Shown piece by piece: positions 3,060 to 23,510 of a stretch of 24,532 bases of DNA (position 1 is the stretch's first letter; every line of letters starts with the position of its first letter). The notes beneath the pieces are model-generated. The model saw only the letters and a list, made by a program, of their open reading frames with translations, made no database searches and was not told the origin of the DNA. The stretch spans positions 1 to 24,532 of the IMG/VR virus record IMGVR_UViG_3300046003_002984; one strand, given 5' to 3'. Both the position numbers and the translations under genes were made by a program. Source of the DNA: a virus.

Positions 3060-3060
3060 T

Positions 3061-3432
3061 TTAACTTATATCCTCATAACTGCAAGTAACACACAATGTG
3101 TTTGCTGTGCCTGCGGTTGCTCCTAGACTACTGTTTTCTTCTAAGTAATACTGACTTGTTTTGTCAATAACATTTAATGTACTATTACTAGGAACACTTA
3201 CATTTCCCACAAGTTGAAATAATGTTCCACCAACGTTGGCTGCACTATAATAACCAATGGTAATATTAGCTACGCTATTACCGTAATTAGCTACGTTTAA
3301 TACGTTTACTTTTAAACACTTACCACTACCGCTGGCATTGTTTAATACTGTAGTTGCCGCGGTAGTTGTTAGATTTGCACCGGTTGTTTTACCATTGATT
3401 GTTGTTGCACTGATTATGTTTGGTGCTGCCAT
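3061..3432 (-). CDS. Small beta-rich virion-type protein (MAAPNI family)
   Basis: The start is set at the ATG at 3432, four codons inside the longest frame, because GGAGG sits 6 bases before it. That gives 123 residues. The protein begins MAAPNIISATTINGKT and ends ..CVTCSYEDIS, with alternating strands and an SVPSNSTLNVIDKTSQYYLEE stretch. I recognise this as a small protein common in aquatic T4-like phages, usually annotated as hypothetical or structural. No enzymatic motif is seen. The upstream 646-residue fibre gene ends one base before the start, so the two are probably translated together and the product may act on, or sit beside, that fibre. That partnership is inference. Confidence 0.8.
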   Translation of the reverse strand: MAAPNIISATTINGKTTGANLTTTAATTVLNNASGSGKCLKVNVLNVANYGNSVANITIGYYSAANVGGTLFQLVGNVSVPSNSTLNVIDKTSQYYLEENSSLGATAGTANTLCVTCSYEDIS

Positions 3433-3433
3433 G

Positions 3434-5374: not shown

Positions 5375-5393
5375 TTGGATAGGGCCTTTAGTG

Positions 5394-5401
5394 TATTTAT
5401 G
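5394..5401 (-). promoter_or_regulatory. Candidate T4-like late promoter (CATAAATA)
   Basis: CATAAATA differs from the T4 late -10 consensus TATAAATA at one base. It lies 19 bases before the ATG of the 646-residue fibre gene, in the 108-base gap after the LamG gene. Transcription would start close to 5387. This is one of the best motif matches in the window. Confidence 0.5.
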
Positions 5402-5482
5402 CTGTCTGGTATATGGATACTGTAACTTAAGTTACTGCCCAACCTTGCTTAATCTAGTTATTATTGTCATAATTTGTTTAAG

Positions 5483-8400: not shown

Positions 8401-10330
8401 GTTGACCTGTTGAATTGCATAATAGTGAAATGTCAAGGGCTCCACCGTTATCAGTTCTAAAAATTGTCTTATTGCTTGCAAATGCTACAGGATAAACCCA
8501 CGCCTCGTAAGTAAATGAACCTGCGCCAGCGGCAGAAACACTTGAATATATGCTATCACCAGTACCATCAAAGTATCCACTACCATATAGACTATAACTA
8601 CTGTTTGGCGTGAAGGGTTGGAATGATTTTATTGAAGTATTACCCGCAACTGTTACTGTAAATGCGTTTGTACTGTTATCAATGAAACGATTAGATTGGC
8701 TGGTTAACAAGCTTGTTGCTGAAGATGCAAAAGTGATATCTACATTTATTGTACTTGGATATGCGGCAGCAGAAGTTGAACCCGCATTGGTGAGTGGTGC
8801 AAGTGTGGGCGGGGTGAATGCACCAGTGTATACTGCTGTGCCTTTGACGATGCGTGCGTTAGATACATATCCAGTGACATACTCAAAATTACCGGCTCCA
8901 TTTCTACCAATAGCAACTATTTGCGTTGAGTCAGTTATGGCTAAACTTGCCATATTCAATGCAGTAGATTGAACTCCATTTACATATATATAAACACTGG
9001 CTCCGTTACGAACTCCTGCTATATGTACCCATGTATTTGCTGTAATAGCAGATGCTGCTGTAGCAAAATACATAGTACCACCATAGCCAACGCCAATTCT
9101 TGGTGTCCCGCTGTTTACATTAAGTACAAAACTCATAGAACCCTGAGAACCACCTGAATCACAGGTTCCAATTATTATTTGAGATCCGGATATTGTTGAT
9201 AAATTTACCCAGCATTCAATTGTAAAGTCACCAGCTGCCATAGTAAACGCAACATTATCCGGAACACTTATATAATCCCCGGTGCCATCAAAATAGTTAC
9301 TATAATAACCAGGACTATACGGATTAAAACTGTTTGGCTTTGTATCACCCGCAATCGTTACGGCAAAGTTATTTGTACTTGCATCATCTACAAAAGTTGT
9401 ACTTGCACCCGGTATCAATAATGTATTGTACTCAAAGTAGGGATCATTGGCTACTGTAATACTCCAATTGATAGTTCTTACCGCACTACGAGTTGTTGTC
9501 GCAGCCGTAGCAGTTAACAATGTGCTACTATCAGCTATCACAGTTGGTGTACCAGATATGTTTGAACCAGTTAATGTCAATCCAGTTGGTAGTGCATTAG
9601 CACTATAACTAACCGCATAACCAGCGGCATCTGTTGCACTTAATGCTACATTAGCTATAACACTATCTACCGCAGTGGTATATGTTGCGGCATTTGCTGG
9701 TGAAACCCAGGTAACAGCATCAACATTAATTGTTAAACTAAAACTTCTGGTGCTATCTTGTAATTGTGCGTCAGTTGCTTGGATTGTAAATGAATATGTT
9801 GTACTACTGCTATCTACTGGGGCTGTGCCAGTTATTACACCATTGGCATATAGGGTAGATCCAGTTGGTAAACTACCAGAATATAATGCATAAGTTATCG
9901 GGGCATCACCCGAAGCGATTACCGTATTTGATATACTTGTTGTCTCATAATAACTACCCAATGTACCGGCACTTGTTGTCCAAGTTGGTAACACGCTATA
10001 GATAATGCCAGGAATATATATTGCGGTACCACCATCTGAATTTACCACATAAATTGTATATGTGCCTGCACTTTTTGCAGGGCTGGTGAATGTTAATTGA
10101 TTTGGATTAACATAAGTTACCACTGCCACAGCACTACCATCAAATGTAATAGTTGCTCCTGCTAAAAAGCCAGTACCATTAATTAGAACAGTTTGTCCGC
10201 CGGCTGGATCTAACGCTGTATCATCTACCCCACCAACACTATAGCCAGAGATAGTCGGAGGTAAAGGTTTTAATGCGTTAATGACACTTACGCTAGTTAC
10301 AAGGTCATTTACAACTGACGTTATACTCAT
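5483..10330 (-). CDS. Giant adhesin-like protein with IPT/TIG, Ig-like and six LamG domains
   Basis: The protein has 1615 residues. An N-terminal IPT/TIG-type domain (about residues 24-110, with GGQTVLINGTGFLAGATITFDG) is followed by two putative Ig/cadherin-like domains (about 118-290, with LPTGSTL..GVITGTAP and LPTGLTLTGSNISGTPTV). Six concanavalin-A/LamG-type domains then begin near residues 350, 588, 798, 1018, 1245 and 1455. Each opens with FDG(T/S)GD followed by a (D/A)FT.E.W strand and closes with a G(Y)(V/L)(S/T)(N/D)xRI.KG motif. Linkers carry DNSTN.F...GN(T/S). LamG domains commonly bind carbohydrate, so surface-glycan binding by the virion is inferred. The gene overlaps the 109-residue gene by ATGA, so translation is coupled. 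No signal peptide or catalytic motif is seen, and no frame break interrupts the roughly 4.8 kb. Confidence 0.85.
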   Translation of the reverse strand: MSITSVVNDLVTSVSVINALKPLPPTISGYSVGGVDDTALDPAGGQTVLINGTGFLAGATITFDGSAVAVVTYVNPNQLTFTSPAKSAGTYTIYVVNSDGGTAIYIPGIIYSVLPTWTTSAGTLGSYYETTSISNTVIASGDAPITYALYSGSLPTGSTLYANGVITGTAPVDSSSTTYSFTIQATDAQLQDSTRSFSLTINVDAVTWVSPANAATYTTAVDSVIANVALSATDAAGYAVSYSANALPTGLTLTGSNISGTPTVIADSSTLLTATAATTTRSAVRTINWSITVANDPYFEYNTLLIPGASTTFVDDASTNNFAVTIAGDTKPNSFNPYSPGYYSNYFDGTGDYISVPDNVAFTMAAGDFTIECWVNLSTISGSQIIIGTCDSGGSQGSMSFVLNVNSGTPRIGVGYGGTMYFATAASAITANTWVHIAGVRNGASVYIYVNGVQSTALNMASLAITDSTQIVAIGRNGAGNFEYVTGYVSNARIVKGTAVYTGAFTPPTLAPLTNAGSTSAAAYPSTINVDITFASSATSLLTSQSNRFIDNSTNAFTVTVAGNTSIKSFQPFTPNSSYSLYGSGYFDGTGDSIYSSVSAAGAGSFTYEAWVYPVAFASNKTIFRTDNGGALDISLLCNSTGQLLSYDNSGTLLASTTTTLQLNTWAYVALVRNGTAMQIYINGVESRTGGSGTFSNNITYTQLDIGGRSTNGDESWNGYITDARYTKSAVYTTTFTPPSAPLTAIANTSLLTLQNNQSVNNSVFLDNSTNNFLVTRNGNTTQGTFSPYGGNWSNYFDGSGDYLSVPGNSVFAFGTEDFTLEVWLYANSISTGTFDRICATSDYNGSGFDWSLNTSTSFLYVGGTAYSIGSITTNTWHHLVYTRSGSVIRGFKNGNLSSYTTGASQNVVSVTQLYIGTGYSGTALNGYLSNLRIIKGSIPVAYQTSSTTTGTQIFTSPTSPVTDISGTSLLTCQSNRLIDNSTNNFAITKVGDTSVQRFSPFNPSIVTPTSYSGYFDGTGDYLNTPSNAAFGFGTGDFTIEAWYYFTGTIGTYQRPWWFGDDNDNIEINGSVLRVGGASQGTLITGGTTILANTWYHVALTRASGSYKLWLNGTQQGSTASNSYNSSARTFTIMATSGGSNPSTGYVSNLRIVKGVAVYTGAFTVPTSPLTATQSSGTNIAAITGTSTSLLTCQSTTFIDNSTNNFTISAFGNSQPTQQNPFGYTSATTNGYTASTIGGSGYFDGTGDFLQLLSAGTSFNMGTGAFTAEAWIYPLVSDTWQGGISTIGTFGTGFGFNITNTNKIRFTIGDSGSGTDLDSTASVLKNTWTHIAITRNSSGTMSVFINGGLQGTATSSANITNTECILGRGYLNLDLNLLNGYMTDVRVIKGTSLYTSNFVPPSAPLTAIQNTTLLTNMTGAGIYDAAMMNNMETVGDAKLSTAISKFGGSSMSFDGTGDYVIEPTNVNFGYGTGDFTIEFWLYLNTLGLQTIFSNLTADASVNPHIYYNSGLLYFTNSANRITGSTLSTATWYHIAVCRASGSTKMFINGTQSGSTYADTNNYGTTAPLGIGTYWRSGTPATTETFNGYLDDLRITKGYARYTSNFTPPAAAFPIY

Positions 10331-10656
10331 GTCAACTCTGACCCAAATAAGTTAAAACTAACTGTTGTTGTGTTAGCTCTAACTGTAATTATATCTGTTG
10401 TTGCTAATGTAATCCCAATAGTCATTGTAATACTATCATTAGCGTTTATATTGGTATCATACGATATATACTGTGGCGTTGCTATTGCTGCTCCAGCTGG
10501 CCTTACTGCAATTCTAAATGTTGCGGCACTTGCTGCCTGATTACAAATTACAAGTGTACTACAAACTGCTGATGTAGCAGAAGGTACTGTATACAAATCT
10601 GTGTTTGTGTTTGCAGCTGGGTTACTTTGCCCTAAAACTTTGTATGTGATTGCCAT
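10327..10656 (-). CDS. Small virion-type protein (109 residues)
   Basis: The protein begins MAITYKVLGQSNPAANTNTDLYTVP and ends ..VSFNLFGSELT. It is all beta in appearance, with an FRIAVRPAGAAI...YISYD core. I recognise this as a small conserved protein in many tailed phage genomes, usually next to tail fibre genes and annotated hypothetical or structural. Its AAGGAAA ribosome binding site lies 6 bases before the ATG and overlaps the stop of the upstream 481-residue gene. Its own stop overlaps the start of the LamG giant (ATGA). The tight coupling suggests it is made in proportion to that adhesin and could be its connector or capping partner, which is inference. Confidence 0.8.
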   Translation of the reverse strand: MAITYKVLGQSNPAANTNTDLYTVPSATSAVCSTLVICNQAASAATFRIAVRPAGAAIATPQYISYDTNINANDSITMTIGITLATTDIITVRANTTTVSFNLFGSELT

Positions 10657-10665
10657 GTTATTTCC

Positions 10666-12111
10666 TTATGCTCCCATTAACAAGAATGGACTTAATAAAT
10701 CCTGTGCTGTTATTCCACCTGGCGGAGCGTATGATATTTCTTTGGTCGATGTATTGTAATAAAGCACATTGGCTACATTACTAGTATCATTTCGTATCGG
10801 AGCAACTGTGAATGTATTGGCGGTGGTTTGATTTAAAGTAGCACCGGTTGCATTGATAATGATTGAGTTGGCTGCTTGGCTGGTAACACCAGCATTTGCA
10901 CCAATCGCTATCGAATTAGCACCTTGACTGGTAAGTCCAGCATTAGCGCCCAATTGAATTGTAGTGGTGTTAACTCTAAAGTTTGCGCCGTCCCAAGTTA
11001 AATTAGCCGTGCCACCAAATGAACCGGCATTGTTGAACTGAATATAGGTGTTTGATCCACCAGGGGTGCCACCGCCGCCACTCGCCAGTTCACGGATTTG
11101 AATCCCCATAGCGACAGCCGGTGCAGTAGTGAAGGTTAAAACAGCACCAGATACCGTGTAGTCTGTGGTAGGTACTTGAACAATGCCGTTTTCCATCACT
11201 AACACACTGTCAACCGTGACACCTGACGTAACAGTAAAGGTAGTTTGAACACCGTTACCCGTGTAAGTCCTGGTTATAAATGTACCGGATCCACCACCCC
11301 CGGCGCCACCACCCAATGCAAAGGTAGTTACTTCTATCTGTGCGCCAGACGATGGGGCAGCAGACATCGTTACATTTGCACTGGCTACGGTAAATGCGTT
11401 ATGTAATTGAGTTACACCATCGATGTTAACTTGTATGAAATTGTTACTGGTTGGTGTGGTGCTGAGAGTAAAGATAGTCTGTACACCATTACCAGTGAAA
11501 GTATCAATGGTGATATTACCACTGCTAGAAGTCCAAGTTAAGTTACCTGAACCATCTGTTGTTAACATTTGACCATTACTACCGCCGGTAATAACGACAT
11601 TTCCCACAGGCCCCAGATTACTAACACCAGTTACTTGTAATGTCCCGGCGACATTAACACCTGTACCAGTAAACTGTACAATGTTAGCGTTTCCAGAAAC
11701 ACCTACAGTTACGTTACCATTTGCACTAGCAATATTAACATTACTAGTACCATTGCTGATCGAGGCTCCACCTCCACCGGTTTGTGCTACCCAACTTAAA
11801 TTACCTAACCCGTCAGTGCTTAACACATACGCAGATGTACCACCGGTAATAACAACGTTTCCAACGGCGCCTAAATTACTTTTCGCTGCAACATTAAGAT
11901 TTCCACCTACATAAATATTACCGGTTATACCAACGCCGCCGGTGACCTTTACTGCACCAGTAGTTGTACTGGTGCTAGTTGCAGCGGAAGTAAAAGTAGC
12001 ATTGCCCGAAGCTGACAATGCGTTAGCAATAACATTGCCGTTACTATCAATTACAGTATTTCCGAGTTCTCCAAACGAAAATCCGTTTATTGAATTAAAG
12101 GTGGTTGCCAT
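10666..12111 (-). CDS. Modular repeat tail-fibre-like protein, 481 residues
   Basis: The N-terminus (MATTFNSINGFSFGE...VIDSNGNVI) belongs to the same cassette as the fibre genes starting at 16183 and 17133. It is followed by two copies of the ITGG...(L/M)(S/T)TDG.GNL(S/T)W module (about residues 85 and 175), two FTGNG-QT-FT(L/V) units (about 203 and 283, each with an IDGV/MENGI strand pair typical of phage fibres), a QFNNAGSFGGTANLTWDG element and YadA-head-like repeats (GANSIAIGANAG, about 392-415). It ends LLSPFLLMGA. A trimeric beta fibre is inferred. An AAGAGA element precedes the ATG, and a CTAAATA late-promoter candidate lies 9 bases upstream of the start codon. Confidence 0.8.
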   Translation of the reverse strand: MATTFNSINGFSFGELGNTVIDSNGNVIANALSASGNATFTSAATSTSTTTGAVKVTGGVGITGNIYVGGNLNVAAKSNLGAVGNVVITGGTSAYVLSTDGLGNLSWVAQTGGGGASISNGTSNVNIASANGNVTVGVSGNANIVQFTGTGVNVAGTLQVTGVSNLGPVGNVVITGGSNGQMLTTDGSGNLTWTSSSGNITIDTFTGNGVQTIFTLSTTPTSNNFIQVNIDGVTQLHNAFTVASANVTMSAAPSSGAQIEVTTFALGGGAGGGGSGTFITRTYTGNGVQTTFTVTSGVTVDSVLVMENGIVQVPTTDYTVSGAVLTFTTAPAVAMGIQIRELASGGGGTPGGSNTYIQFNNAGSFGGTANLTWDGANFRVNTTTIQLGANAGLTSQGANSIAIGANAGVTSQAANSIIINATGATLNQTTANTFTVAPIRNDTSNVANVLYYNTSTKEISYAPPGGITAQDLLSPFLLMGA

Positions 12112-12120
12112 ATTCTCTTA

Positions 12121-12127
12121 TATTTAG
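12121..12127 (-). promoter_or_regulatory. Candidate T4-like late promoter (CTAAATA)
   Basis: CTAAATA on the minus strand lies 9 bases before the ATG at 12111, in the 28-base gap between two fibre genes. If used, the transcript start would fall at about the ribosome binding site, leaving a very short leader. The match to TATAAATA is partial. Confidence 0.35.
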
Positions 12128-12139
12128 TTATGGCAATTA

Positions 12140-15100
12140 TCATAGGAATCTATATTGTGTAGTCCATACAGTTGAATTGCTGCTAGCGGGGGTAACCTGT
12201 AGTGCTATATTTGGTCCTGCTATGATATTTACAGTGATTGTGCCTGTACTCGTACCCAATCTTACAGTTCCAAATGTAGCATAATCAACCGTAGCTCCAT
12301 CAGTCACTGCTTGTACAGTAGCTATTGCATATTTTGATCCAGTTGAATCAGTGCTCTTCACTAGGAACTCGACTCCTGTAAATGTACTGCTAGAAACCGC
12401 AAAAGTTGCTAATGTTTGATTTGCACCAGTACCAGTGGTTGTTGTTGTGCTCCAAGATACTCCAGTATTACCTATTTCTAGCGACGCAGAGACAGTTGCA
12501 TTGTTCGCACTTATATTGCCGGCGGTACTAATATTGGCAGCACTTAGATTACCTAATGCAGTGATTGTACCATTACCAAAAGTTGTATTAGCAGTCGCAT
12601 TACCTACCACTAGTGTAGTTAGTGTGCCAACACTAGTAATATTGGGTTGAGCAGCAGTAGTAACGGTACCCGCAGTAGTTGCCGCACCACTTAAAGCACC
12701 TACGAATGTAGTTGCTATTAATGCGCCATTAGCTATGTTAGCTGAGAACCCGCTGTTTGCTGATAACGCATAATTAGCACTACTACTACCACTTATGAAT
12801 GTAGGGAAGAAAGTACCAGTAGTTTGTGCTGTTACAACTTCAAAATCAGTAACGTTAGCATAGTCAACATTTAAGTTGGCAACGCGAGTTGTGCTAGCTA
12901 CTGCGATAGGTGCTGTGCCAGTCGAAACATTTGATACCAAGAAACTAGCTGTTATGTTACCTGCAGTTGCAAAGTTACCACTAGTGGTTGTTCCTGTTAC
13001 TGCTAAACTAGACAGTGTACCAACACTAGTAATATTAGGCTGCGCATTAGTTGTAACAGTACCAGCAGTAGTAGCTGCCCCTGACAATGCACCTACGAAT
13101 GTAGTTGCTATCAATGCGCCGTTAGCTAAATTAGCTGATAATCCACTGTTTGATGCGTGAGCATAGTTACCTGTACTGCTACCATTTACAAATACTGGAA
13201 AGTATGTGCCGGACGACTGAGTAGTTACAACCCCAAAATCAGCAACGTTAGCATAGTCAACATTTAAGTTGGCAACGCGAGTTGTGCTAGCTACTGCGAT
13301 AGGTGCTGTGCCAGTAGCCACGTTAGATACAACAAAACTAGCTGTCAAGTTACCGGCAGTTGCAAAGTTACCACTAGTGGTTGTACCAGTGACTGCCAAG
13401 CTGCCCAATGTTCCAACGCTTGTTAAACTAGAAGTAACAACTGTTGATTTCAATACGGTACCACTTAAGTTTCCAGCGTTAGCTGTAATTGCTACGTTAG
13501 CAGCAGCAGATAGTTGACCTTGACCGTTAACAGTAAAAGTAGCGTTGTAATCCCCGTTACCGTATGCACCTGCTGTTACAGTAGTATTAGCGATACTGAA
13601 TACAGTACCATTTAATGCTAATCCAGTACCTGCAGTATATGTGCCTGCACCAGAGAATTGCACCCAAACAACAGGACTTGTTCCAACAGTAGTAACTGAA
13701 TCAGGCATTACCCAACCAGTATTGTCATAAACTGTACCCGCAGTAACGAATGTAAAGTCACCACCTGCCATTTCAGTTGGAGTATTAAAGTCATCAGCAC
13801 GTGTAATTACCGTTGCATTTGACCAAACATAGATACCATTATGTGCAGCATTTGCTTCATCCTTAACAAGAATACGTGTTCCAGATGATTGAACGTTAAC
13901 ACCGTCAATTAAATTGAAACTTCCTGTTGTTACAAGATTAGCTCCTACGCCACTTGCACCATTGTTATAAGTAATTGTACCACTGGTAATAGTTGATAGT
14001 ATGGTTGGAGTTGCAGCTTGACAACTATCGTGAGTATGTAACCCTTGAGCAACCTCGTCAACATATTTCTTTGTTGCCGCATCAAAGTCTGCTACAGGAG
14101 TAGCAACATTAGAGATTATAAAGTTACCAACGTTAACTGTACCAGTACCTGTAGGGGTTAAGTTGATGTTTTGATTAGATCCGGTTGCGGTTATTGTTAT
14201 ACCGGATGTTCTACCCACAATCAAATCAGTTATTAGATTTGCACTAGTTGTAATGTTTCCGGTTACTGCTAGGTCATTTAACGTACCAACTGAAGTAATG
14301 TTGGGTTGTGCCGCCGTAGTTAATGTACCCGCATAAAAGTTTGATGTGGTTAAGTTACCAAGATTAGCATTACCTGCAGAGAGATTCCCAGTAACAGCCA
14401 ACGCCGTTAGTATACCAACTGAAGTAATGTTGGGCTGTGCTGCGGTAGTTAATGTACCCGCATAAAAGTTTGATGTGGTTAAGTTACCAAGATTAGCATT
14501 ACCTGCAGAGATATTACCAGTAACAGCTAACGCCGTTAGTGTACCAACACTTGTTACATTTGGTTGAGCCGCTGTAGTTAACGTACCAGTAAATAACGTA
14601 GCTGATAGTGCTCCAGTGGCCGCATTAAATGATAAGTTTGAATTTGCTGCTTGTGCATAGTTACCTGTACTACTACCACTTACGAATGTAGGGAAGAAAG
14701 TACCAGTAGTTTGTGCTGTTACAACCCCAAAGTCAGCTACGTTAGCATAGTCAACATTTAAGTTAGCAACGCGAGTTGTACTAGTTACTGTGAGTGGTGC
14801 GGTGCCTGTTGTGACATTTGACACAACAAAGCTAGCTGTTAAGTTGCCTGCGGTAGCGAAGTTACCACTAGTAGTTGTACCAGTAACTGACAAGCTAGAT
14901 AGCGTACCAACACTAGTAATATTAGGCTGAGCAGCAGTAGTAACAGTACCTGCGGTAGTAGCTGCGCCACTTAATGCACCAATGAACGTAGTTGCTGTTA
15001 ATCCACCGTTAGCTAAATTAGCTGAGAACCCACTATTTGCTGCTAACGCATAATTAGCAGTACTGCTACCATTAGCAAATACAGGGAAATATGTACCAGT

Positions 15101-16183
15101 GGTCTGCGCAGAGACAACACCAAAATCCGAGACGTTAGCATAGTCAACATTTAAGTTGGCAACGCGAGTTGTGCTAGCTACTGCGATAGGTGCTGTGCCA
15201 GTCGAAACATTTGATACCAAGAAACTAGCCGTCACATTGCCTGCAGTAGCAATATTACCGGCAGATGCAGTGCCAGTTACGATCAACGCTGTTAGTGTAC
15301 CAACACTAGTGATGTTGGGCTGTGCTGCGGTAGTTAATGTACCTGCATAAAAGTTTGATGTAGTTAAATTACCAAGATTAGCATTCGCGGCTGATAAATT
15401 ACCGGTTGCAGCTAGTGTTCCGTCAATGTTAGCCCCGGTACTAGTTACAACTACAACATTAGCAACACCATTACTGCTTATATTAACATTACTATTAGCT
15501 GTAACAATAACATTACTATTACCATTGACAATTGAGGTTCCGGCAGCTATAACTAAACCTGTTAATAAACTACCGTTACCTGAAAAGAAGTTAGCTATAG
15601 CTAAATTACCAAGATTAGCATTACCTGACGAGATATTTCCCGTTACGTCTAACGCGGTTAAAGTACCAACACTAGTGATATTGGGCTGTGCATTAGTAGT
15701 TAATGTACCTGAAAAGAAGTTAGCTATAGCTAAATTACCAAGATTAGCATTACCTGATGATATGTTACCCGTTACTGCTAAGCTAGTCAGTGTACCGACA
15801 CTAGTAATATTAGGCTGAGCATTAGTAGTCAACACACCAGTAAAGAAGTTTGCAGTAGCTGAATTTCCTAGATTAGCATTAGTTGATACTATATTGCCAA
15901 GTACAGTGAGGATATTTAATGAAGAACTAAAGGTAAAGTTTGCGCTAGCTCCTAGCGCGCCATCGTTATTAAACTGAATCTGTGTGTTTGCACCTGCAAC
16001 CGCAGTAAAAGACCAAGCCGTTCCGTTGGCATACAGCAAATGGTCAGTTAGAACATTAGCGGCAGCTGCGTTTCCAGTGAAGGTTGCGTTACCGGTTGTA
16101 ATATCGCCGTTTGCTAATATTATATTAGCGGCAGTTTCACCTATTGAGAAACCACCGATTGAATTTAAAGCTCTAATTGCCAT
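12140..16183 (-). CDS. Large modular repeat tail-fibre-like protein, 1347 residues
   Basis: The start is set by AGAGGAA 9 bases upstream. The N-terminus (MAIRALNSIGGFSIGE) matches two neighbouring fibres. An ANTQIQFNNDGALGASANFTF element is followed by tandem 43-residue repeats (NANLGNL..NF..GTLTT.AQPNITSVGTL), two 131-residue modules, two further 43-residue repeats, and a DAATKKYVD domain (about residues 700-855, with ILVKDEAN..NGIYVW and DNTGWV). Two more 131-residue modules and a C-terminal beta domain of about 100 residues (VEFLVKSTD) follow. The C-terminal domain resembles that of the 310-residue protein upstream. I count nine AQPN(I/V)TSVG cores. The regular repeat length suggests a long trimeric beta-helical shaft with an inserted globular domain. 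No catalytic motif is seen. Fibre function is inferred from module similarity and position. Confidence 0.85.
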   Translation of the reverse strand: MAIRALNSIGGFSIGETAANIILANGDITTGNATFTGNAAAANVLTDHLLYANGTAWSFTAVAGANTQIQFNNDGALGASANFTFSSSLNILTVLGNIVSTNANLGNSATANFFTGVLTTNAQPNITSVGTLTSLAVTGNISSGNANLGNLAIANFFSGTLTTNAQPNITSVGTLTALDVTGNISSGNANLGNLAIANFFSGNGSLLTGLVIAAGTSIVNGNSNVIVTANSNVNISSNGVANVVVVTSTGANIDGTLAATGNLSAANANLGNLTTSNFYAGTLTTAAQPNITSVGTLTALIVTGTASAGNIATAGNVTASFLVSNVSTGTAPIAVASTTRVANLNVDYANVSDFGVVSAQTTGTYFPVFANGSSTANYALAANSGFSANLANGGLTATTFIGALSGAATTAGTVTTAAQPNITSVGTLSSLSVTGTTTSGNFATAGNLTASFVVSNVTTGTAPLTVTSTTRVANLNVDYANVADFGVVTAQTTGTFFPTFVSGSSTGNYAQAANSNLSFNAATGALSATLFTGTLTTAAQPNVTSVGTLTALAVTGNISAGNANLGNLTTSNFYAGTLTTAAQPNITSVGILTALAVTGNLSAGNANLGNLTTSNFYAGTLTTAAQPNITSVGTLNDLAVTGNITTSANLITDLIVGRTSGITITATGSNQNINLTPTGTGTVNVGNFIISNVATPVADFDAATKKYVDEVAQGLHTHDSCQAATPTILSTITSGTITYNNGASGVGANLVTTGSFNLIDGVNVQSSGTRILVKDEANAAHNGIYVWSNATVITRADDFNTPTEMAGGDFTFVTAGTVYDNTGWVMPDSVTTVGTSPVVWVQFSGAGTYTAGTGLALNGTVFSIANTTVTAGAYGNGDYNATFTVNGQGQLSAAANVAITANAGNLSGTVLKSTVVTSSLTSVGTLGSLAVTGTTTSGNFATAGNLTASFVVSNVATGTAPIAVASTTRVANLNVDYANVADFGVVTTQSSGTYFPVFVNGSSTGNYAHASNSGLSANLANGALIATTFVGALSGAATTAGTVTTNAQPNITSVGTLSSLAVTGTTTSGNFATAGNITASFLVSNVSTGTAPIAVASTTRVANLNVDYANVTDFEVVTAQTTGTFFPTFISGSSSANYALSANSGFSANIANGALIATTFVGALSGAATTAGTVTTAAQPNITSVGTLTTLVVGNATANTTFGNGTITALGNLSAANISTAGNISANNATVSASLEIGNTGVSWSTTTTTGTGANQTLATFAVSSSTFTGVEFLVKSTDSTGSKYAIATVQAVTDGATVDYATFGTVRLGTSTGTITVNIIAGPNIALQVTPASSNSTVWTTQYRFL
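12626..13345 (-). repeat. Tandem pair of 131-residue modules (copies 3 and 4)
   Basis: Two copies of the VSNV(A/S)TGTAPIAV...YANV.DF.VV...AQPNITSVGTL module start at 13330 and 12937. They are spaced exactly 393 bp (131 codons) apart. Third-position differences are scattered, but long stretches are identical. Boundaries are approximate. Confidence 0.8.
12852..12949 (-). repeat. 98-bp stretch identical to 15132-15229
   Basis: The 98 bases match 15132-15229 with no difference. The first 71 bases also match 13245-13315. It lies inside the 131-residue module of the 1347-residue fibre. Confidence 0.9.
14260..14580 (-). repeat. Tandem 129-bp (43-residue) repeats, inner array
   Basis: The taccaac element recurs with its last base at 14290, 14419 and 14548, a period of exactly 129 bp. 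Each unit encodes NANLGNLTTSNFYAG plus TLTTAAQPNITSVG. The first two copies are nearly identical at DNA level. Outer boundaries are approximate. Confidence 0.85.
14505..15229 (-). repeat. Tandem pair of 131-residue modules (copies 1 and 2)
   Basis: Copies start at 15217 and 14824, again exactly 393 bp apart. Copy 2 diverges in its last third (NLSFNAATGALSATLFTG in place of FSANLANG..). The second pair lies about 1.5 kb further along the gene, beyond the DAATK-YVD domain. Boundaries are approximate. Confidence 0.8.
15582..15910 (-). repeat. Tandem 129-bp (43-residue) repeats, N-terminal array
   Basis: A recognisable (g)aaaagaagtt element recurs at 15582, 15711 and 15840, a period of exactly 129 bp. 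The units encode NANLGNLAIANFFSG and TLTTNAQPNITSVGTL. The third copy is more diverged. Outer boundaries are approximate. Confidence 0.85.
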
Positions 16184-16200
16184 TTTAATGTTCCTCTTAT

Positions 16201-17133
16201 TTACGAAGCAAATTTGACGATCAGCATATTATACCGTGTCAAGTTATCAGAATCCGGATCTACTACCAATTGTACGCTAGGTGGTATTACTGGATCATAT
16301 ATTACACTACAACTTCCTACGCCGCCGTTGATTATCAACCCAGCATATTCATTAAATACCACAGTATCCCCTAAAATAACCGCAGATATCTTGGTAGTTT
16401 GTCTACGGTTTGCAACTAGGTCTGTAGAAATTATAGTAAACTCTAGTGCAGAAACAGTACTTGCAGGGATAGAAAACAACACTTGATTTGGTACAGTGCT
16501 AGCAGTTGTAGCACTGTACACCATTGAAGTGTAGAAATCATATTCACCAACATTTATTTTAAAAGTAACTACATCCAAATTACCAGTTACTGCTAATGTA
16601 TTTGAAGTGGTATCGAATGTCAGTGCAGCAGCAGCATCAAACTGTCCATCTGTATTAAACTGAACCTGTGTGTTTGCACCCGCTGCTGCGACTGCTGTAG
16701 TCGGGCTCCATTCTAAATTCCCAAATCCATCCGTTGTTAAAATATAGTTAGCGGATCCGCCATCAATGGTAACATTGCTTACATTACCTAAATTTGCTTC
16801 TTCCGTTACTACCAATGAACTAGTATTTGTATTGAATAGGGTATTTGTATTGTAAACTGTTATGGTGCTAGATGAACTGTCAAACGTCAACCCTGCACTA
16901 GCACCCAATTCCCCATCAAGATTATATTGAACCTGTGTATTGGCGCCAGCTGCCGGTGATACCAATGGTTGACCGTTGGCATACCGATAACTTCCAGCAT
17001 AAATTACATTTGCTGCAACGTTACCGGTAGGTGTTAATACGTTTGTTACAATATTTCCAGTTTCGTCAATAACGGCAATAGGCGGAATGCCCACCGAAAA
17101 TCCACTTACCGCATTAAAAAGTTCAGATGCCAT
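16201..17133 (-). CDS. Fibre-like structural protein, 310 residues
   Basis: The frame is open further upstream, but the ATG at 17133 is chosen because MASELFNAVSGFSVG aligns with the starts of the fibres at 16183 and 12111. The protein has two ANTQVQ(F/Y)N.DG(Q/E) elements (about residues 67 and 177), one ITGG-like unit (TIDGGSANYILTTDGFGNLEW, about 140) and a C-terminal beta domain (about 205-310) with ALEFTIISTD. That domain aligns with the end of the 1347-residue protein (VEFLVKSTD). It looks like a short version of the same fibre: the same ends with almost no repeat shaft. It is the first gene of the tail block. A GATAAATA late-promoter candidate lies 35 bases upstream. Function as a virion fibre or collar protein is inferred. 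Confidence 0.8.
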   Translation of the reverse strand: MASELFNAVSGFSVGIPPIAVIDETGNIVTNVLTPTGNVAANVIYAGSYRYANGQPLVSPAAGANTQVQYNLDGELGASAGLTFDSSSSTITVYNTNTLFNTNTSSLVVTEEANLGNVSNVTIDGGSANYILTTDGFGNLEWSPTTAVAAAGANTQVQFNTDGQFDAAAALTFDTTSNTLAVTGNLDVVTFKINVGEYDFYTSMVYSATTASTVPNQVLFSIPASTVSALEFTIISTDLVANRRQTTKISAVILGDTVVFNEYAGLIINGGVGSCSVIYDPVIPPSVQLVVDPDSDNLTRYNMLIVKFAS

Positions 17134-17168: not shown

Positions 17169-17176
17169 TATTTATC
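17169..17176 (-). promoter_or_regulatory. Candidate T4-like late promoter (GATAAATA)
   Basis: TGATAAATAAT matches the T4 late element TATAAATA except at its first base. The same 11-base string occurs before the 73-residue head gene (23501-23511). It would drive the tail fibre block from the divergent region between the fibres and the plus-strand HNH-like gene. Confidence 0.5.
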
Positions 17177-17227
17177 AAAAAAGTAAAATTGGTGCGGTGT
17201 GAAAAAAGCACAGCTAGTATCTTTTTT

Positions 17228-17234
17228 CTAAATA
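17228..17234 (+). promoter_or_regulatory. Candidate late promoter abutting ATG (CTAAATA)
   Basis: CTAAATA is followed by 5 bases (CATAT) and the ATG at 17240. A T4 late promoter starts transcription about 6-7 bases after the element, so the mRNA would be leaderless. No ribosome binding site is visible. Confidence 0.4.
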
Positions 17235-17239
17235 CATAT

Positions 17240-17605
17240 ATGCTGACCCGTCAACCATCAAGATCATTATGCGGCAACTGTAAGGTATCCCCTGTCAAAC
17301 CAAACGGTACAAGTAAGAATGGATTTAAAAAATGGCACAAATATTGTGCCTCTTGCGCTAAAGCGGCTTACGATAAAAAGTTTGGTTACTTGTTGGATAA
17401 AAAAAATACGTGCGAACAATGTGATTTTATTCCTCAAGACAAATGCCAACTTGATAGAATCTATCTTGACGGCAATACCAAGAACAAACTCACTGCTAAC
17501 ATAAAAACACTATGCGCTAACTGTAATAGAATCTATCAAAAAAAGTTAAAAGAAAGTTCCTCTTCTATAATGGACATTACAGTGGATGCTGATATTTTAA
17601 TTTAA
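17240..17605 (+). CDS. HNH-like zinc-binding protein with degenerate active site
   Basis: The start is taken at the ATG at 17240. Longer in-frame starts would run back into the opposing fibre gene. The protein has 121 residues and four CxxC pairs: C11/C14 with C36/C39, and C58/C61 with C92/C95, two probable zinc sites. The second half (CEQCDF..QDKCQLDRIYLDGN...NIKTLCANCNR) aligns with the HNH pattern DHxxGN...NLxTLCANCHR. However, the expected Asp-His is Ile-Tyr (I74, Y75), and the His after the last CxxC is Asn (N96). Known HNH nucleases need these histidines, so it may be inactive or a DNA-binding derivative. It is the only plus-strand gene here and ends 3 bases from the convergent HNH gene. 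A leaderless transcript is suggested by the promoter motif. Confidence 0.75.
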   Translation: MLTRQPSRSLCGNCKVSPVKPNGTSKNGFKKWHKYCASCAKAAYDKKFGYLLDKKNTCEQCDFIPQDKCQLDRIYLDGNTKNKLTANIKTLCANCNRIYQKKLKESSSSIMDITVDADILI

Positions 17606-17608
17606 CTG

Positions 17609-18031
17609 TTATTCAAACAATCGTTGCTGTTTTGCTTTTACTGATACTTCGGCTAAGATACGTTTAAGCTGATCTTTATTAGCAAGCACTGTGTTGGCAT
17701 CTTCTGCTACATTGGGGTTGTATGCCTTAAAGCTATCACCGTGACCGATATCTATGTGACATAAGTTTTCCATACACAATGTGATCAAGTTGGTAAGATC
17801 AAGTTCTAACTCTGGATGCAAGTGATAGGGTTTTTTATGATGAACTTCTAAATCATTTGTAGTACCACACGCAGCACAAGTTGAGTTGAGTTTTAAATGT
17901 TTCTTCTTAACTCCCGGCCACTTGCCACTTCGTTTTACAGTGTGGAGTGCATCTCTATTAGCGTGGGCAAGTAATTTTGCTTGGCGCTTTTTTGTAATTT
18001 TCTTTGGTGGTGGTAATTGTGTAGTTTCCAT
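17609..18031 (-). CDS. HNH endonuclease, compact
   Basis: The frame is open upstream, but the ATG at 18031 is preferred because the extension would cross the terminator hairpin at 18057-18076. The protein has 140 residues. A basic N-terminus (PPPKKITKKRQAKLL...RSGKWPGVKKKHL) is followed by an HNH domain: C52-x2-C55, HH at 64-65, N81 in LTNLITLC, C86, CH at 91-92 and H97. All expected catalytic and zinc residues are present, so it is probably an active DNA nuclease of the free-standing homing type. No ribosome binding site is visible; an AATAAATA motif lies 4 bases before the ATG. It converges on the plus-strand HNH-like gene with a 3-base gap and no terminator between them. Confidence 0.85.
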   Translation of the reverse strand: METTQLPPPKKITKKRQAKLLAHANRDALHTVKRSGKWPGVKKKHLKLNSTCAACGTTNDLEVHHKKPYHLHPELELDLTNLITLCMENLCHIDIGHGDSFKAYNPNVAEDANTVLANKDQLKRILAEVSVKAKQQRLFE

Positions 18032-18035
18032 TATA

Positions 18036-18043
18036 TATTTATT
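18036..18043 (-). promoter_or_regulatory. Candidate late promoter abutting ATG (AATAAATA)
   Basis: AATAAATA is one base off TATAAATA. It is followed by TATA and the ATG at 18031. It directly follows the T-tract of the preceding terminator. It would give a leaderless or nearly leaderless mRNA. Confidence 0.4.
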
Positions 18044-18076
18044 AAAAAACAAAAAAGGCTCTGTATATACAGAGCC
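18040..18076 (-). terminator. Intrinsic terminator after the NUMOD3 HNH gene
   Basis: The perfect palindrome GGCTCTGTATATACAGAGCC (18057-18076) is followed on the minus strand by TTTTTTGTTTTTT. It lies 38 bases beyond the stop of the HNH gene at 18114. There is no T-tract on the plus side, so it acts on the minus strand. Confidence 0.8.
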
Positions 18077-18113
18077 CTTGATGTAAACTTCCCATCCCAT
18101 TGAGATATTGTAT

Positions 18114-18860
18114 TTATGCTTTTTGCTTACAATTGTCTCCATGCCATCTTGTATAACCATTGACTGCTACTTCGTTATTACAATGTGGGCATAGTTTCTT
18201 TTCACGCTTTAGTCCTCTGATAGCTTCTGCTTTTTTAGCAACAGTTTCAGGTGATTGTTTTCTTCCTGTTGCTTTCTCACGCTGTTTCTGTTTAGTTTCA
18301 TCAGTGTGATTTTTTCCAAACATATTATTCTTTTCCCCTTGTTTGGATGATGACATTTTTTCTTTCCATTGAGTAGAGAAAGGGTTTCGTTTTCTTCCTG
18401 TAATAGCCTCAATTTGTTTTTGTTTTTCATGATCGGGTTGAATTCTACCAGAATTTGCCTCGCTTATTTTTCGCTTAGCGTTGTCTGTTTGTTTCTTACC
18501 AAACATCCCGTTTCCTTTACCCTTACGTTTCTCACTACTAAGTAAAGCATATTCCTCTTTGAGTCTGGCATACACTCTGGAAGTAATTTTAGTAGTGTGT
18601 CGCTGTTGATTCTTATTTTCAGCCCGCATTATACGAATAGCATTTAGCATTTTCCAATGCGCTTCGCCGTCTTTGTATATCTTTGTTAATAACCAATGAC
18701 ATATAAAGTGTTCCCTAGGTGTTATGTTAGTAAGATTTTCTTTCTTATTCGTGCCGCCTAAACTTTTCGGAAGAATATGATGGTTTTCGTTTTTAGGATC
18801 ATAGATACGGCTCTGGCCGCGCTCTGTAATTTGTTTGTGCCATTTTTCATATTTGTTCAT
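18114..18860 (-). CDS. HNH homing endonuclease with NUMOD3 repeats and zinc knuckle
   Basis: The protein has 248 residues. The N-terminal HNH domain shows NHHILPKSLGGTN (His27-His28), ENLTNIT (Asn42 or Asn45) and REHFICHWLL (His51, His55), the pattern of phage and intron HNH nucleases. Two clear NUMOD3-type DNA-binding repeats follow (GMFGKKQTD..KRKISEA, about 118-140, and NMFGKNHTDETKQK, about 179-201), with a weaker one between (about 155-175). A C-terminal knuckle C224-x2-C227...H240-x3-C244 may add DNA contacts. All key residues are present. It sits between a terminator for gp23 and its own terminator, with a CTAAATA motif 5 bases before the ATG and no ribosome binding site. That is a self-contained homing cassette next to the capsid gene, a common site for such elements in T4-like phages. 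Confidence 0.9.
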   Translation of the reverse strand: MNKYEKWHKQITERGQSRIYDPKNENHHILPKSLGGTNKKENLTNITPREHFICHWLLTKIYKDGEAHWKMLNAIRIMRAENKNQQRHTTKITSRVYARLKEEYALLSSEKRKGKGNGMFGKKQTDNAKRKISEANSGRIQPDHEKQKQIEAITGRKRNPFSTQWKEKMSSSKQGEKNNMFGKNHTDETKQKQREKATGRKQSPETVAKKAEAIRGLKREKKLCPHCNNEVAVNGYTRWHGDNCKQKA

Positions 18861-18865
18861 GCTAA

Positions 18866-18872
18866 TATTTAG
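18866..18872 (-). promoter_or_regulatory. Candidate late promoter abutting ATG (CTAAATA)
   Basis: CTAAATA is followed by TTAGC and the ATG at 18860. It lies downstream of the gp23 terminator, so the HNH gene would need its own promoter. No ribosome binding site is present. Confidence 0.4.
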
Positions 18873-18932
18873 TATGTTTGTTAACTCAATATAGCAGTAT
18901 ATAAAGAAAATAGCTAGCGGAATGGGAGCCGT

Positions 18933-18957
18933 AAAAAAGGGAACCGAAGTTCCCTTT
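18933..18957 (-). terminator. Strong intrinsic terminator after the capsid gene
   Basis: On the minus strand, AAAGGGAAC-TTCG-GTTCCCTTT forms a 9-bp stem with a stable cTTCGg tetraloop, followed by a run of six T. It lies 42 bases past the gp23 stop. A second small hairpin (AGCACT-tacg-AGTGCT, 18978-18993) lies between the stop and this terminator. Confidence 0.9.
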
Positions 18958-18998
18958 GCTGTGATTTTACTTTCAATAGCACTCGTAAGTGCTTGATT

Positions 18999-20195
18999 TC
19001 ACTGAAAAGTAAGATTTTGCACGTTTATCTCGCCAACGTAATCCGCGGCATTGCCGAATGAGGATGCAGTATTAGTAAGCTCTATGTACCCGTACCGCGT
19101 CATAAACGAAACGACTGGTTCGAATGTTGACGGATCAAGAACAACACCACTACTCATCAACGGAATGTAAGGGCAATAGAATGCCGCTGCATCTGTTTCT
19201 GAAGAGCCTTTGTATCCAACCAATACTGGAGTATTGTCAGGAGCATATGAGTCAACGAACACGCGCATAGCGCCATTCAATGTACCAACAAACTTGGTGT
19301 TTGTAGGTGCTTCGAAGGTGCCTTCTGTAGTGCGAGCGAATGCGCTAGTAGTAGCAGACTGAAGAACAGTCAATGCAGCACTAGATACAACAGCCCAGTT
19401 ACCAGCGCCACGACGAGTGCGTTGAGCAATCAAGTTAGCAACACGATTGATAAGAACAGCTAGAGCAGCGTGTTCGTCACCAACGTATGTAGCAGTACCT
19501 GAAACTGTAGCTTGGTTGTAAGTGTATTCAATCGATGCTAGAGTGCGTAGCGACAATAGAATTTCTTGGTCGATTTCAGCGGTAATTTCTTGCGCTAAAG
19601 CAGCCATGATTTCTGCCTCAACGTCAATCCCGTGTTGCGATTGAGCATCTTGAGCAGCTTCGAATGTCCAACGAGCTTGCAACTTACGTGACTTGGCTTC
19701 AACGGCCTGACGTAGAATCTGAACGCTGATTTGTTTACCACCATTGCCTTCAAGGGCAGCAGTGTCATTACCAGTGTAATAGTCAGTTGTAGTTGCATCA
19801 CTCTTAACACGTGAATATGCCTGAGCGATTTTGAACGGGCTCAAAGCTTCTTCACCTGCTGTAACGCTAGTTTGCGCTGCTGAATTGTCGGTTAACGACT
19901 GAGCATAGCGAACACGTAGAGTGTGAATCTGACCAACTGGTCCAGTCATTGGCTGAACGCCTACCAATTCGTTAGCGATAACGGTTGGCATTACACGACG
20001 GATAACTGGAAGAATAACGCGATTTAAAGTAGCGATATTACCTGCAGTTGTTGTACCGGCAGTAGATTCAGCAAGTAGTTGCTTTTTGGTATTCTCTAAA
20101 AGAACACCCATTGTTGAGCGGCGATTGCCTTTTAATCCTTCTAACAGGGCCTCTTTGGTCTCATCCCAACGGCTTTCTAAGAGTACTTTTGACAT
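18999..20195 (-). CDS. gp23: Major capsid protein gp23, T4 type, short form
   Basis: The protein has 398 residues against 521 in T4. Conserved blocks include GVQPM..P.GQI..LR.RY (79-97), VEAKSRKLQARWTFEAAQD...HGID.EAE (165-195), a RRGAGNW stretch (261-267) and YKGSSETDAAAFYCPY (328-343). It forms the hexamers of the head. A probable gp21 cut site, Leu41-Ala42-Glu43 before Ser44, matches the T4 consensus (L/I)-x-E and would remove a 43-residue propeptide (65 in T4). The shorter length is mostly due to a missing stretch between residues 97 and 165, where T4 carries its insertion. AGGAG precedes the ATG by 9 bases. It is the last gene of the head operon, closed by a strong terminator. No clear late-promoter motif lies just upstream. 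Confidence 0.97.
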   Translation of the reverse strand: MSKVLLESRWDETKEALLEGLKGNRRSTMGVLLENTKKQLLAESTAGTTTAGNIATLNRVILPVIRRVMPTVIANELVGVQPMTGPVGQIHTLRVRYAQSLTDNSAAQTSVTAGEEALSPFKIAQAYSRVKSDATTTDYYTGNDTAALEGNGGKQISVQILRQAVEAKSRKLQARWTFEAAQDAQSQHGIDVEAEIMAALAQEITAEIDQEILLSLRTLASIEYTYNQATVSGTATYVGDEHAALAVLINRVANLIAQRTRRGAGNWAVVSSAALTVLQSATTSAFARTTEGTFEAPTNTKFVGTLNGAMRVFVDSYAPDNTPVLVGYKGSSETDAAAFYCPYIPLMSSGVVLDPSTFEPVVSFMTRYGYIELTNTASSFGNAADYVGEINVQNLTFQ

Positions 20196-22241: not shown

Positions 22242-23159
22242 TTATCTAACAATACGTTTAACAGTCTTGCGGGCTTCAGCAATCGGGCTCTTGTCGTTTT
22301 GTGCTACGCTACCGCCTGCACCAACTTCTTTGCCTGTCGAGCTATCTTTTTTGCCCCAATCACGCGGTGCTTTGTCTTTGAATGATGTCTTGCCAGCGTT
22401 ACCGCCCGGTGCATTCTTAAACTGTCCAGCACCTTTAACTTGCGTCTCACCCTTAGTACCATAGTTACTTGGGTTCTTTGGGCTTGTTGGAACTGGTTCA
22501 TTTTGACCAGAGAATGTGACAGGTTTGCTGTCCATTCCAGCTTGTCCACTGTTTTGTAAGCCTGGGCTCTTTGTTTGAGCGCCATTGTCGCCGCCAATTT
22601 TAGAACCGTATAGACCCTTGACATTTTGTAGCTGAACTGCTTCCATCATTTCTTCGCCCATGTCTTCTTCGTCGCCCATGTCGTCATCACCGCCCATGTC
22701 TTCTTCGTCACCCATGTCGTCATCACCGCCCATGTCTTCTTCGTCACCCATGTCGTCATCACCGCCACCACCCATGATCTGCTCAAATTCAGCCATCAAT
22801 TGGTCTAGCTTGTCTTCAATACGAATAACAGAATCTTCAACTTCTCCGCCTTCGCTTGCAGCATCGTCAGATTCAATATCGACAACATCATCACCTTCAA
22901 GGTCATCCATGCCATCCATGCCATCTTCATCTTCAGCCATGCCGCCGGCTTCTTCGCTGCTGATTTCATCCATCAGATCACCTACTTGGCCGCCCATGCC
23001 TTCTTCAACATCATCTTCCATTCCCATCTCTTCGTCCATTATGGACTCATAGATTTCTCGGGATTTTTCTACAACGATGTCATGGAATAATTCACGCGCT
23101 TGTTCTTCGTCCTCATTGATAATTAGGTCAATAAGTTTTTCAAATTTTTTGTTGTCCAT
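22242..23159 (-). CDS. Acidic prohead core protein, gp67-like
   Basis: The protein has 305 residues. The N-terminal 40 (KFEKLIDLIINEDEEQARELFHDIVVEKSREI region) are helical and resemble the start of T4 gp67, an internal core protein that gp21 destroys. A long Asp/Glu/Met/Gly-rich stretch follows (about 37-170), including three 12-residue repeats (GGDDDMGDEEDM), then a neutral Gly/Asn/Lys segment and a basic end (ARKTVKRIVR). T4 gp67 is only about 80 residues but also has an acidic tail, so this is an enlarged form. Some aquatic T4-like phages label the gene here gp67 or gp68. AGGAGA precedes the ATG, and a CTAAATA promoter candidate lies about 33 bases upstream. Core role is inferred from position, N-terminus and acidity. 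Confidence 0.8.
   Translation of the reverse strand: MDNKKFEKLIDLIINEDEEQARELFHDIVVEKSREIYESIMDEEMGMEDDVEEGMGGQVGDLMDEISSEEAGGMAEDEDGMDGMDDLEGDDVVDIESDDAASEGGEVEDSVIRIEDKLDQLMAEFEQIMGGGGDDDMGDEEDMGGDDDMGDEEDMGGDDDMGDEEDMGEEMMEAVQLQNVKGLYGSKIGGDNGAQTKSPGLQNSGQAGMDSKPVTFSGQNEPVPTSPKNPSNYGTKGETQVKGAGQFKNAPGGNAGKTSFKDKAPRDWGKKDSSTGKEVGAGGSVAQNDKSPIAEARKTVKRIVR
22657..22764 (-). repeat. Three tandem 36-bp repeats in the core protein gene
   Basis: Units begin at 22657, 22693 and 22729 and are almost identical; the visible difference is tcg/tca at one codon in the first unit. Each encodes 12 residues of Gly, Asp, Glu and Met. The near-identity suggests recent slippage expansion. Confidence 0.95.
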
Positions 23160-23191: not shown

Positions 23192-23199
23192 TTATTTAG
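23192..23199 (-). promoter_or_regulatory. Candidate T4-like late promoter (CTAAATAA)
   Basis: GCTAAATAAT on the minus strand, with its T4-like core at 23199-23193, lies about 33 bases before the ATG of the acidic core gene. The 103-base gap around it has no other evident element. Confidence 0.4.
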
Positions 23200-23262: not shown

Positions 23263-23484
23263 TTAAATTGAGGGAGATTCTGCTTTGGCTCCGTATTGCG
23301 TATGAACTTTTTTAAGATGCTGCTTTTTTTCGTAGTTTCTAACGTCCAACATCTTTCGCAATTTTCTCAATTGCTTTAGTGTAAGCTTGGTTTTTCTAGA
23401 TTGTTTCCAAATAGGTTTACTCTGATCGGCATCAACGTCTTGGTAGCCGGGAACAGGCGGGTCGAACATTTCCATTAATTTCAT
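23263..23484 (-). CDS. Small basic protein between portal and core genes
   Basis: The protein has 73 residues. It begins MKLMEMFDPPVPGYQDVDADQ, followed by a Lys/Arg-rich helical part (TLKQLRKLRKMLDVRNYEKKQHLKKVHTQYG region). It has no membrane segment or known catalytic motif. I recognise similar small proteins beside the portal gene in aquatic T4-like phages, without known function. The position is that of T4 gene 67, but the strong basic charge argues against it being gp67 itself. It might help nucleate the core or bind the acidic partner encoded next, which is inference. AGGGA precedes the ATG, and a GATAAATA promoter candidate lies 18 bases upstream, just past the portal stop. Confidence 0.75.
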   Translation of the reverse strand: MKLMEMFDPPVPGYQDVDADQSKPIWKQSRKTKLTLKQLRKLRKMLDVRNYEKKQHLKKVHTQYGAKAESPSI

Positions 23485-23502: not shown

Positions 23503-23510
23503 TATTTATC
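23503..23510 (-). promoter_or_regulatory. Candidate T4-like late promoter (GATAAATA)
   Basis: TGATAAATAAT is identical over 11 bases to the motif before the tail block. It lies between the portal stop and the 73-residue gene and would leave a leader of only about 12 bases that still contains the AGGGA ribosome binding site. Confidence 0.5.

Follow-up and report, generated by a model that had tools for sequence, protein, structure and literature searches.

Promoters of the T4 late type predicted to give leaderless mRNAs from a late gene class of a jumbo phage lineage

A T4-like jumbo myophage fragment in IMG/VR contains three genes described as HNH-type that start without a ribosome binding site and carry the motif TAAATA a few bases before the ATG. 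This raises the question of whether such genes are transcribed from late promoters lying so close to the start codon that the mRNA would have no leader, and whether this placement is peculiar to homing genes. The fragment (24.5 kb, hereafter the window) encodes homologues of gp20, gp21, gp23 and of the gene at the gp22 position, together with a long series of fibre-like genes. Among cultured phages, its gp23 is closest to those of Vibrio 2.275.O, Phosso, PA5oct and the GAP32/121Q/CBB group, with 62–68% identity. The fibre-like genes (2130-17133) are long, repetitive and arranged in series, with related N-termini and GNLSAGN-type repeats. An Rfam search of the window gave no match.

The first-pass annotation had placed TAAATA 4–5 nt from the start codon of each gene and found no Shine-Dalgarno sequence there, and our analysis confirmed this, with spacings of 5, 4 and 5 nt for HNH1, HNH2 and HNH3, respectively, and a Shine-Dalgarno sequence at 0 of 3 starts (Table 1). 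Only four TAAATA-N3-6-ATG arrangements occur in the whole window, and three of them are those of HNH1, HNH2 and HNH3. The window has 29 copies of TAAATA against 35 expected, which is no over-representation, so the signal lies in the position of the motif and not in its number. Several structural genes of the window are also preceded by TAAATA, mostly further off (9 to 35 nt), so the motif is probably the late promoter of this phage. Before the gene at 1754-2113, one copy abuts the ATG and a second lies 13 nt upstream. Given that HNH2 stands directly behind a strong terminator-like hairpin and HNH3 behind the gp23 terminator, each of them probably needs a promoter of its own.

Table 1 Features of the window that bear on the placement of TAAATA
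Feature	Position	Strand	Remarks
Divergent fibre-like gene (MASELFN...), leadered late gene	16201..17133	-	TAAATA 35 nt upstream
TAAATA (GATAAATA), late-promoter element of the divergent fibre-like gene	17169..17174	-	About 60 nt from the HNH1 promoter
CTAAATA, late-promoter element of HNH1	17228..17234	+	5 nt before ATG 17240; CTAAATA-CATAT-ATG = 17228-17242
HNH1, 121-aa four-Cys-pair zinc/HNH-like protein	17240..17605	+	Fixed resident gene convergent with gp23; catalytic His residues replaced
HNH2, 140-aa putative HNH endonuclease	17609..18031	-	PF01844 above cut-off
TAAATA, late-promoter element of HNH2	18036..18041	-	4 nt before ATG; directly behind terminator; AATAAATA-TATA-ATG = 18029-18043
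Intrinsic-terminator-like hairpin, then TTTGTTTTTT	18054..18079	-	Between HNH3 and HNH2
TAAATACAATATCTCAATGGGATGGGAAG element, candidate short late RNA or 3' element	18080..18116	-	TAAATA overlaps HNH3 stop codon, then terminator
HNH3, 248-aa HNH/NUMOD3 homing-endonuclease-like protein	18114..18860	-	PHROG 655
TAAATA, late-promoter element of HNH3	18866..18871	-	5 nt before ATG 18860; CTAAATA-TTAGC-ATG = 18858-18872
Terminator-like hairpin behind gp23 (AAAGGGAACTTCGGTTCCCTTT, then T-run on the minus strand)	18936..18957	-	
gp23, major capsid protein	18999..20195	-	Shine-Dalgarno-led
Leadered late-promoter element, contrast case	23193..23198	-	33 nt 5' of gene 22242-23159, which has a Shine-Dalgarno sequence
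TAAATA before small gene 23263-23484	23503..23508	-	18 nt before the gene, leadered in the window; 3–7 nt in 31/40 distinct relatives

Around these starts, other conserved arrangements were observed. The late promoters of HNH1 and of the fibre-like gene stand back to back, about 60 nt apart, in the window (17169-17240) and in homologous loci, and in HNH1 relatives an inverted repeat, GAAAAAAG...CTTTTTTC, lies immediately 5' of the HNH1 element. A conserved element is present behind gp23 or homing genes at about 26 distinct loci and often consists of TAAATACAATATCTCAAY, then GGGATGGGAAG, about 10 nt, a hairpin and a T-run; the loci include the window (18054-18116, minus strand), L003, L016, L046, L065, L073, L079, L101, L126 and others. 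This element, a candidate short late RNA or 3' element, had no match in Rfam.

Next to the promoter question stands the nature of the three proteins. HNH2 and HNH3 are HNH-type as first described, and HNH1 turned out to be only remotely HNH-like. HNH3 matches NUMOD3 (1.5e-12) and PHROG 655, homing endonuclease (6e-46), with the HNH domain alone below the Pfam cut-off. In an alignment to the HNH consensus, the first catalytic His of HNH1 is Tyr or Phe in all 37 aligned members and the last one is replaced in all but L111; PF01844 gave weak matches in 3 of 28 members. The HNH1 profile matches DotN (IcmJ) of Legionella, an HNH-like zinc protein, with E = 0.003, and the HNH1 model (pLDDT 66, a modest confidence) superimposes on DotN at 1.3 angstrom over 41 residues, a fold match not significant by E-value; the model is consistent with an HNH-like core without proving one. 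In all 80 loci that contain both genes, HNH1 and gp23 are convergent, and in nearly all loci examined HNH1 adjoins, and diverges from, the same kind of fibre-like gene. With its catalytic His residues replaced and only one fixed site, we rejected an active homing endonuclease for HNH1, which is most likely a domesticated zinc protein.

In 28 loci, gp23 and HNH1 are separated by 59–94 nt; in the window the gap between them measures 1.4 kb, and in other loci it reaches up to 8.1 kb. HNH2 and HNH3 are optional there, inserted at a site that is otherwise empty. This space (17605-18999 in the window) is a cargo hot spot that holds homing genes, a fatty-acid desaturase or other genes. Naming a host from the desaturase was tried and abandoned, its nearest relatives, mostly Burkholderiales and Gammaproteobacteria at about 60% identity, being too weak for this. 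HNH2 and HNH3, HNH/NUMOD3 proteins that adjoin gp23, resemble the free-standing homing endonucleases of T4-like phages (the seg and mob genes, and mobE of Aeh1), among which T4 segD has a similar place, between genes 23 and 24. Some of these endonucleases are known to be expressed late from a promoter of their own. A review of homing endonucleases describes promoters in upstream non-coding regions, promoters in upstream genes or none at all, and translational control by hairpins, with leaderless expression unmentioned (PMC2988022).

We found that the placement of TAAATA is conserved in some gene families and absent from others. Nearly all of the 63 viral-contig loci with HNH1 relatives retain both the element and its spacing, and the bases between vary. 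In a family test on 1,665 ORFs, with the start set where homologues agree and duplicate upstreams removed, TAAATA lies 3–7 nt before the ATG in 42 of 46 distinct upstreams of HNH1 and in 10 of 12 of HNH3, and a Shine-Dalgarno sequence is present in 0/46 and 0/12, respectively. HNH1 homologues share the same ATG, and the start positions of HNH1 and HNH3 are supported because they are conserved among homologues. HNH2 is mixed, with the element present behind the terminator in close relatives and none at such spacing in distant ones. Beyond the HNH-type genes, TAAATA at 3–7 nt was found for a fatty-acid-desaturase-like gene (7/7) and a small head-core-like gene beside gp20 (31/40), and not for gp23 (0/45), gp22 (0/47), gp21 (0/43) or a 305-aa head gene (0/40), the last of which mostly has TAAATA 31–44 nt upstream together with a Shine-Dalgarno sequence.

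The spacing was further analysed genome-wide on six near-complete contigs from jumbo phages of this lineage (250–364 kb; 2,544 genes), chosen for their HNH1 or HNH3 relatives. Gene starts were taken as the first ATG of each ORF from a mechanical ORF caller made for the analysis, and this gene-start analysis took the place of simply counting TAAATA-N-ATG and the reversed pattern across whole genomes, which was too noisy. The results showed that the distance from TAAATA to ATG is bimodal, with a spike at exactly 4–5 nt, a trough at 7–12 nt and a broad mode at 16–24 nt. The motif, the distance bins and the Shine-Dalgarno definition were chosen after seeing the window; the test genomes are independent of it, and the spike of 141 genes, against about 6 expected from dinucleotide frequencies, far exceeds such tuning. 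These 141 genes, the close class, are spread over the six contigs as 25, 32, 25, 24, 21 and 14 (4.5–8.3% of genes). Spacings of 4 and 5 nt occur 224 and 334 times per 10,000 at called starts, respectively, and 2.8 and 7.0 times at non-start ATGs. Many orthologues are shared among the six contigs, and 81 of the 163 genes with TAAATA at 3–7 nt are the sole predicted leaderless member of their own protein cluster.

Several properties of the starts go along with the close spacing. A Shine-Dalgarno sequence precedes only 4 of the 163 genes with TAAATA at 3–7 nt, against 165 of 251 with TAAATA at 13–30 nt. When in-frame codons were compared, the element stood before 164 of 4171 ATG, 3 of 906 GTG, 2 of 1616 TTG and 0 of 814 CTG codons. 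AUG dependence is a known mark of leaderless translation. At spacing 5, base -1 is a pyrimidine in 75 of 84 genes and a purine in 9, compared with 863 and 1072, respectively, of 1935 genes without the element (p = 5e-17). Such a bias would be expected of a transcription start that a purine at -1 displaces; genes with spacing 4 lack it. G is depleted in codons 2–5. TAAATA is preceded by A in about 70% of the lineage sites, and G stands two bases before it in about half of the leadered sites. In a strict scan, a terminator-like hairpin lies upstream of only 14% of close-class genes, compared with 3% of genes without the element.

T4-type late promoters, which depend on gp55, gp33 and gp45, have the element TATAAATA at -13 to -6 (PMC1524935), with the same TAAATA core, so at spacing 5 the A of the ATG would be +1. 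A gp55 homologue is encoded in 6 of 6 contigs (matches to phrog_12791 and phrog_234); this evidence comes from relatives, the window itself being only a fragment. We therefore propose that HNH1, HNH2 and HNH3 very probably belong to a lineage-wide late gene class whose T4-type, gp55-dependent promoters are placed for leaderless mRNAs. TAAATA would serve as the -10-like element, and at spacing 5 the sixth base after it, following the T4 rule, would be the A of the ATG; at spacing 4, initiation would take place at the fifth base, again the A of the ATG. Since the strict T4 distance at spacing 4 would put +1 on the U of the AUG, flexibility of the start site must be assumed. The mRNAs would then be translated without a Shine-Dalgarno sequence via recognition of the 5'-terminal AUG, and initiation at such AUGs has been demonstrated (PMC4965119). 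Other late genes of the same genomes would have the same promoter 16–24 nt before the start codon and carry a short leader together with a Shine-Dalgarno sequence, intermediate spacings being avoided. Counting the sixth base after TAAATA as +1 gives predicted leader lengths of 0 (or -1) nt and of about 11–20 nt, and few values fall between. In the bacterium Lactococcus cremoris, measured leader lengths are bimodal too, with none of 4–14 nt (PMC10986495). We infer the transcription start, the late timing and the mode of ribosome recruitment, and the mRNA 5' end is predicted from promoter geometry only. At the level of sequence, the leaderless placement of a T4-type late promoter suggested by the first-pass annotation is strongly supported by the bimodal spacing, the absence of Shine-Dalgarno sequences, the near-exclusive ATG, the -1 pyrimidine and the gp55 homologues.

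To compare the lineage with cultured phages, the gene-start analysis was applied to T4, Vibrio 2.275.O, PA5oct, GAP32 and S-PM2 (first 180 kb), in which 0/254, 0/489, 1/423, 0/536 and 0/220 genes, respectively, have the spacing of 4–5 nt, that is, one close-class gene in 1,922. By raw pattern count, 121Q, KVP40, Aeh1 and P-SSM2 have no excess over the reversed pattern, and Phosso has 4 against 2. A late promoter ATAAATA has been predicted for the jumbo phages CBB and GAP32 (PMC5259590). The three cultured jumbo phages tested also encode gp55 homologues, as the six contigs do; thus the promoter system is common to both and the placement, near-absent from the five cultured phages analysed by gene start, is not. 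The first-pass annotation had named an equally frequent spacing before ordinary phage genes as grounds against its own reading; this holds in part within the lineage, whose ordinary genes show the spacing as well, and does not hold in T4 or the other cultured phages tested.

Within the lineage, the close class is dominated by non-HNH genes such as the terminase, the small head-core-like gene and the desaturase. The terminase large subunit has TAAATA 5–8 nt before the called start and no Shine-Dalgarno sequence in 6 of 6 contigs, and its homologues in PA5oct, Vibrio 2.275.O, GAP32 and T4 are Shine-Dalgarno-led (the called start being approximate in T4 and PA5oct). For a 573-aa protein and the small head-core-like gene, both the predicted leaderless and the leadered state occur among orthologues. 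Single close-class genes have Pfam matches to deformylase, DHFR, superoxide dismutase, ferritin and a sigma-70 region 4 protein. Another small family of HNH-like proteins (MRPIC..., 114 aa) was also seen with TAAATA 4–5 nt before the ATG, in two genomes (G001:84334-84678 and G002:328787-329131).

This composition bears on the proposal, made in the first-pass annotation, of a portable cassette, in which the promoter-plus-start unit would be a special adaptation of homing endonucleases that works at any late-region insertion. All three HNH-type genes of the window carry the close element, as do most HNH3 upstreams, HNH2 and HNH3 each sit behind a terminator in a hot spot of 59 nt to 8.1 kb, and homing-type genes show a mild enrichment: 7 of 40 others are in the close class (odds ratio 3.3, p = 0.01; one of the seven was counted after its start was moved to the conserved ATG). 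However, the remaining homing-type genes have ordinary leaders or no TAAATA, distant HNH2 relatives have none at such spacing, the majority of the class are not endonucleases, HNH1 without its catalytic His is confined to one site, and HNH3 homologues, directly behind gp23 in all 11 examined, gave no sign of movement to other late regions. The proposal is therefore mostly unsupported and quite unlikely, and an HNH-specific cassette as a general statement was rejected, close placement being common in non-HNH genes of the lineage. What is plausible is that a self-contained promoter-start unit lets cargo such as HNH2, HNH3 and the desaturase sit behind a terminator in the hot spot.

Chance placement in AT-rich sequence, for which the lack of overall TAAATA enrichment in the window might speak, is extremely improbable and was rejected: positions are conserved across homologues with 50–99% protein identity, the genome-wide spike is far above expectation, and AT-rich T4 and PA5oct yield next to nothing. 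The AT-rich stretch might alternatively be a translational feature, an unstructured or S1-binding leader of transcripts that begin further upstream, since translation of genes that lack a Shine-Dalgarno sequence can be started through AU-rich leaders and ribosomal protein S1 (PMC5397173); 53 of the 141 close-class genes (38%) have another gene on the same strand less than 30 nt upstream and could also be read from longer transcripts. We consider this reading very unlikely, because one motif is enriched at exactly 4–5 nt and hexamers of the same composition are far fewer (at 3–7 nt, at most 32 against 93 for TAAATA, except ATAAAT with 64, which overlaps the motif), because the same motif precedes leadered genes at 16–24 nt, and because near-exclusive ATG and the -1 pyrimidine are expected of a transcription start at the AUG and not of a leader. 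A dual use, in which the leaderless promoter would add a late monocistronic mRNA to an early or middle transcript begun further upstream in the usual way, is a possibility that we hold only tentatively. T4 homing genes with middle and late promoters are known (PMC2988022), and in the HNH3 relatives L009, L010, L013 and L014 a sigma70-like TTGACT-17-TATAAT lies just 5' of the leaderless late element, which suggests early plus late expression of these homing genes. Against dual use, the early or middle leaders would still be without a Shine-Dalgarno sequence, and in the window the sigma70-like boxes are weak and a scan listed no sigma70-type site.

The leaderless late class that we favour shares features with known leaderless mRNAs (lambda cI and transposon tetR; abundant in mycobacteria, haloarchaea and Lactococcus), which likewise have an AUG start and bimodal leader lengths, and for the genes described here no leader and no Shine-Dalgarno sequence are predicted (PMC4965119, PMC10986495). 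It differs from them as a predicted genome-wide late class that is tied to one phage promoter type and includes the terminase. Phage transcripts have been remarked to be "often leaderless" (PMC5312081), so the general idea of leaderless phage transcripts is not new. In the open-licence literature we found no description of a leaderless class with phage late promoters or with homing endonucleases, which is weak evidence of novelty.

It is conceivable, but rather unlikely, that the two translational classes of late mRNA, Shine-Dalgarno-leadered and leaderless, form a regulatory layer, for example if host ribosomes or initiation factors were altered late and favoured leaderless terminase and similar mRNAs at packaging. 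If the leaderless reading is true, a large phage lineage would have turned a conserved group of late genes, the essential terminase among them, to leaderless expression via a promoter shift of about 15 bases. The orthologues found in both states would allow direct tests of the cost, benefit and timing of leaderless translation. For such uncultured genomes, TAAATA-N4-5-ATG would be a practical rule for calling starts and late genes, and gene finders based on Shine-Dalgarno sequences may misplace starts in them.
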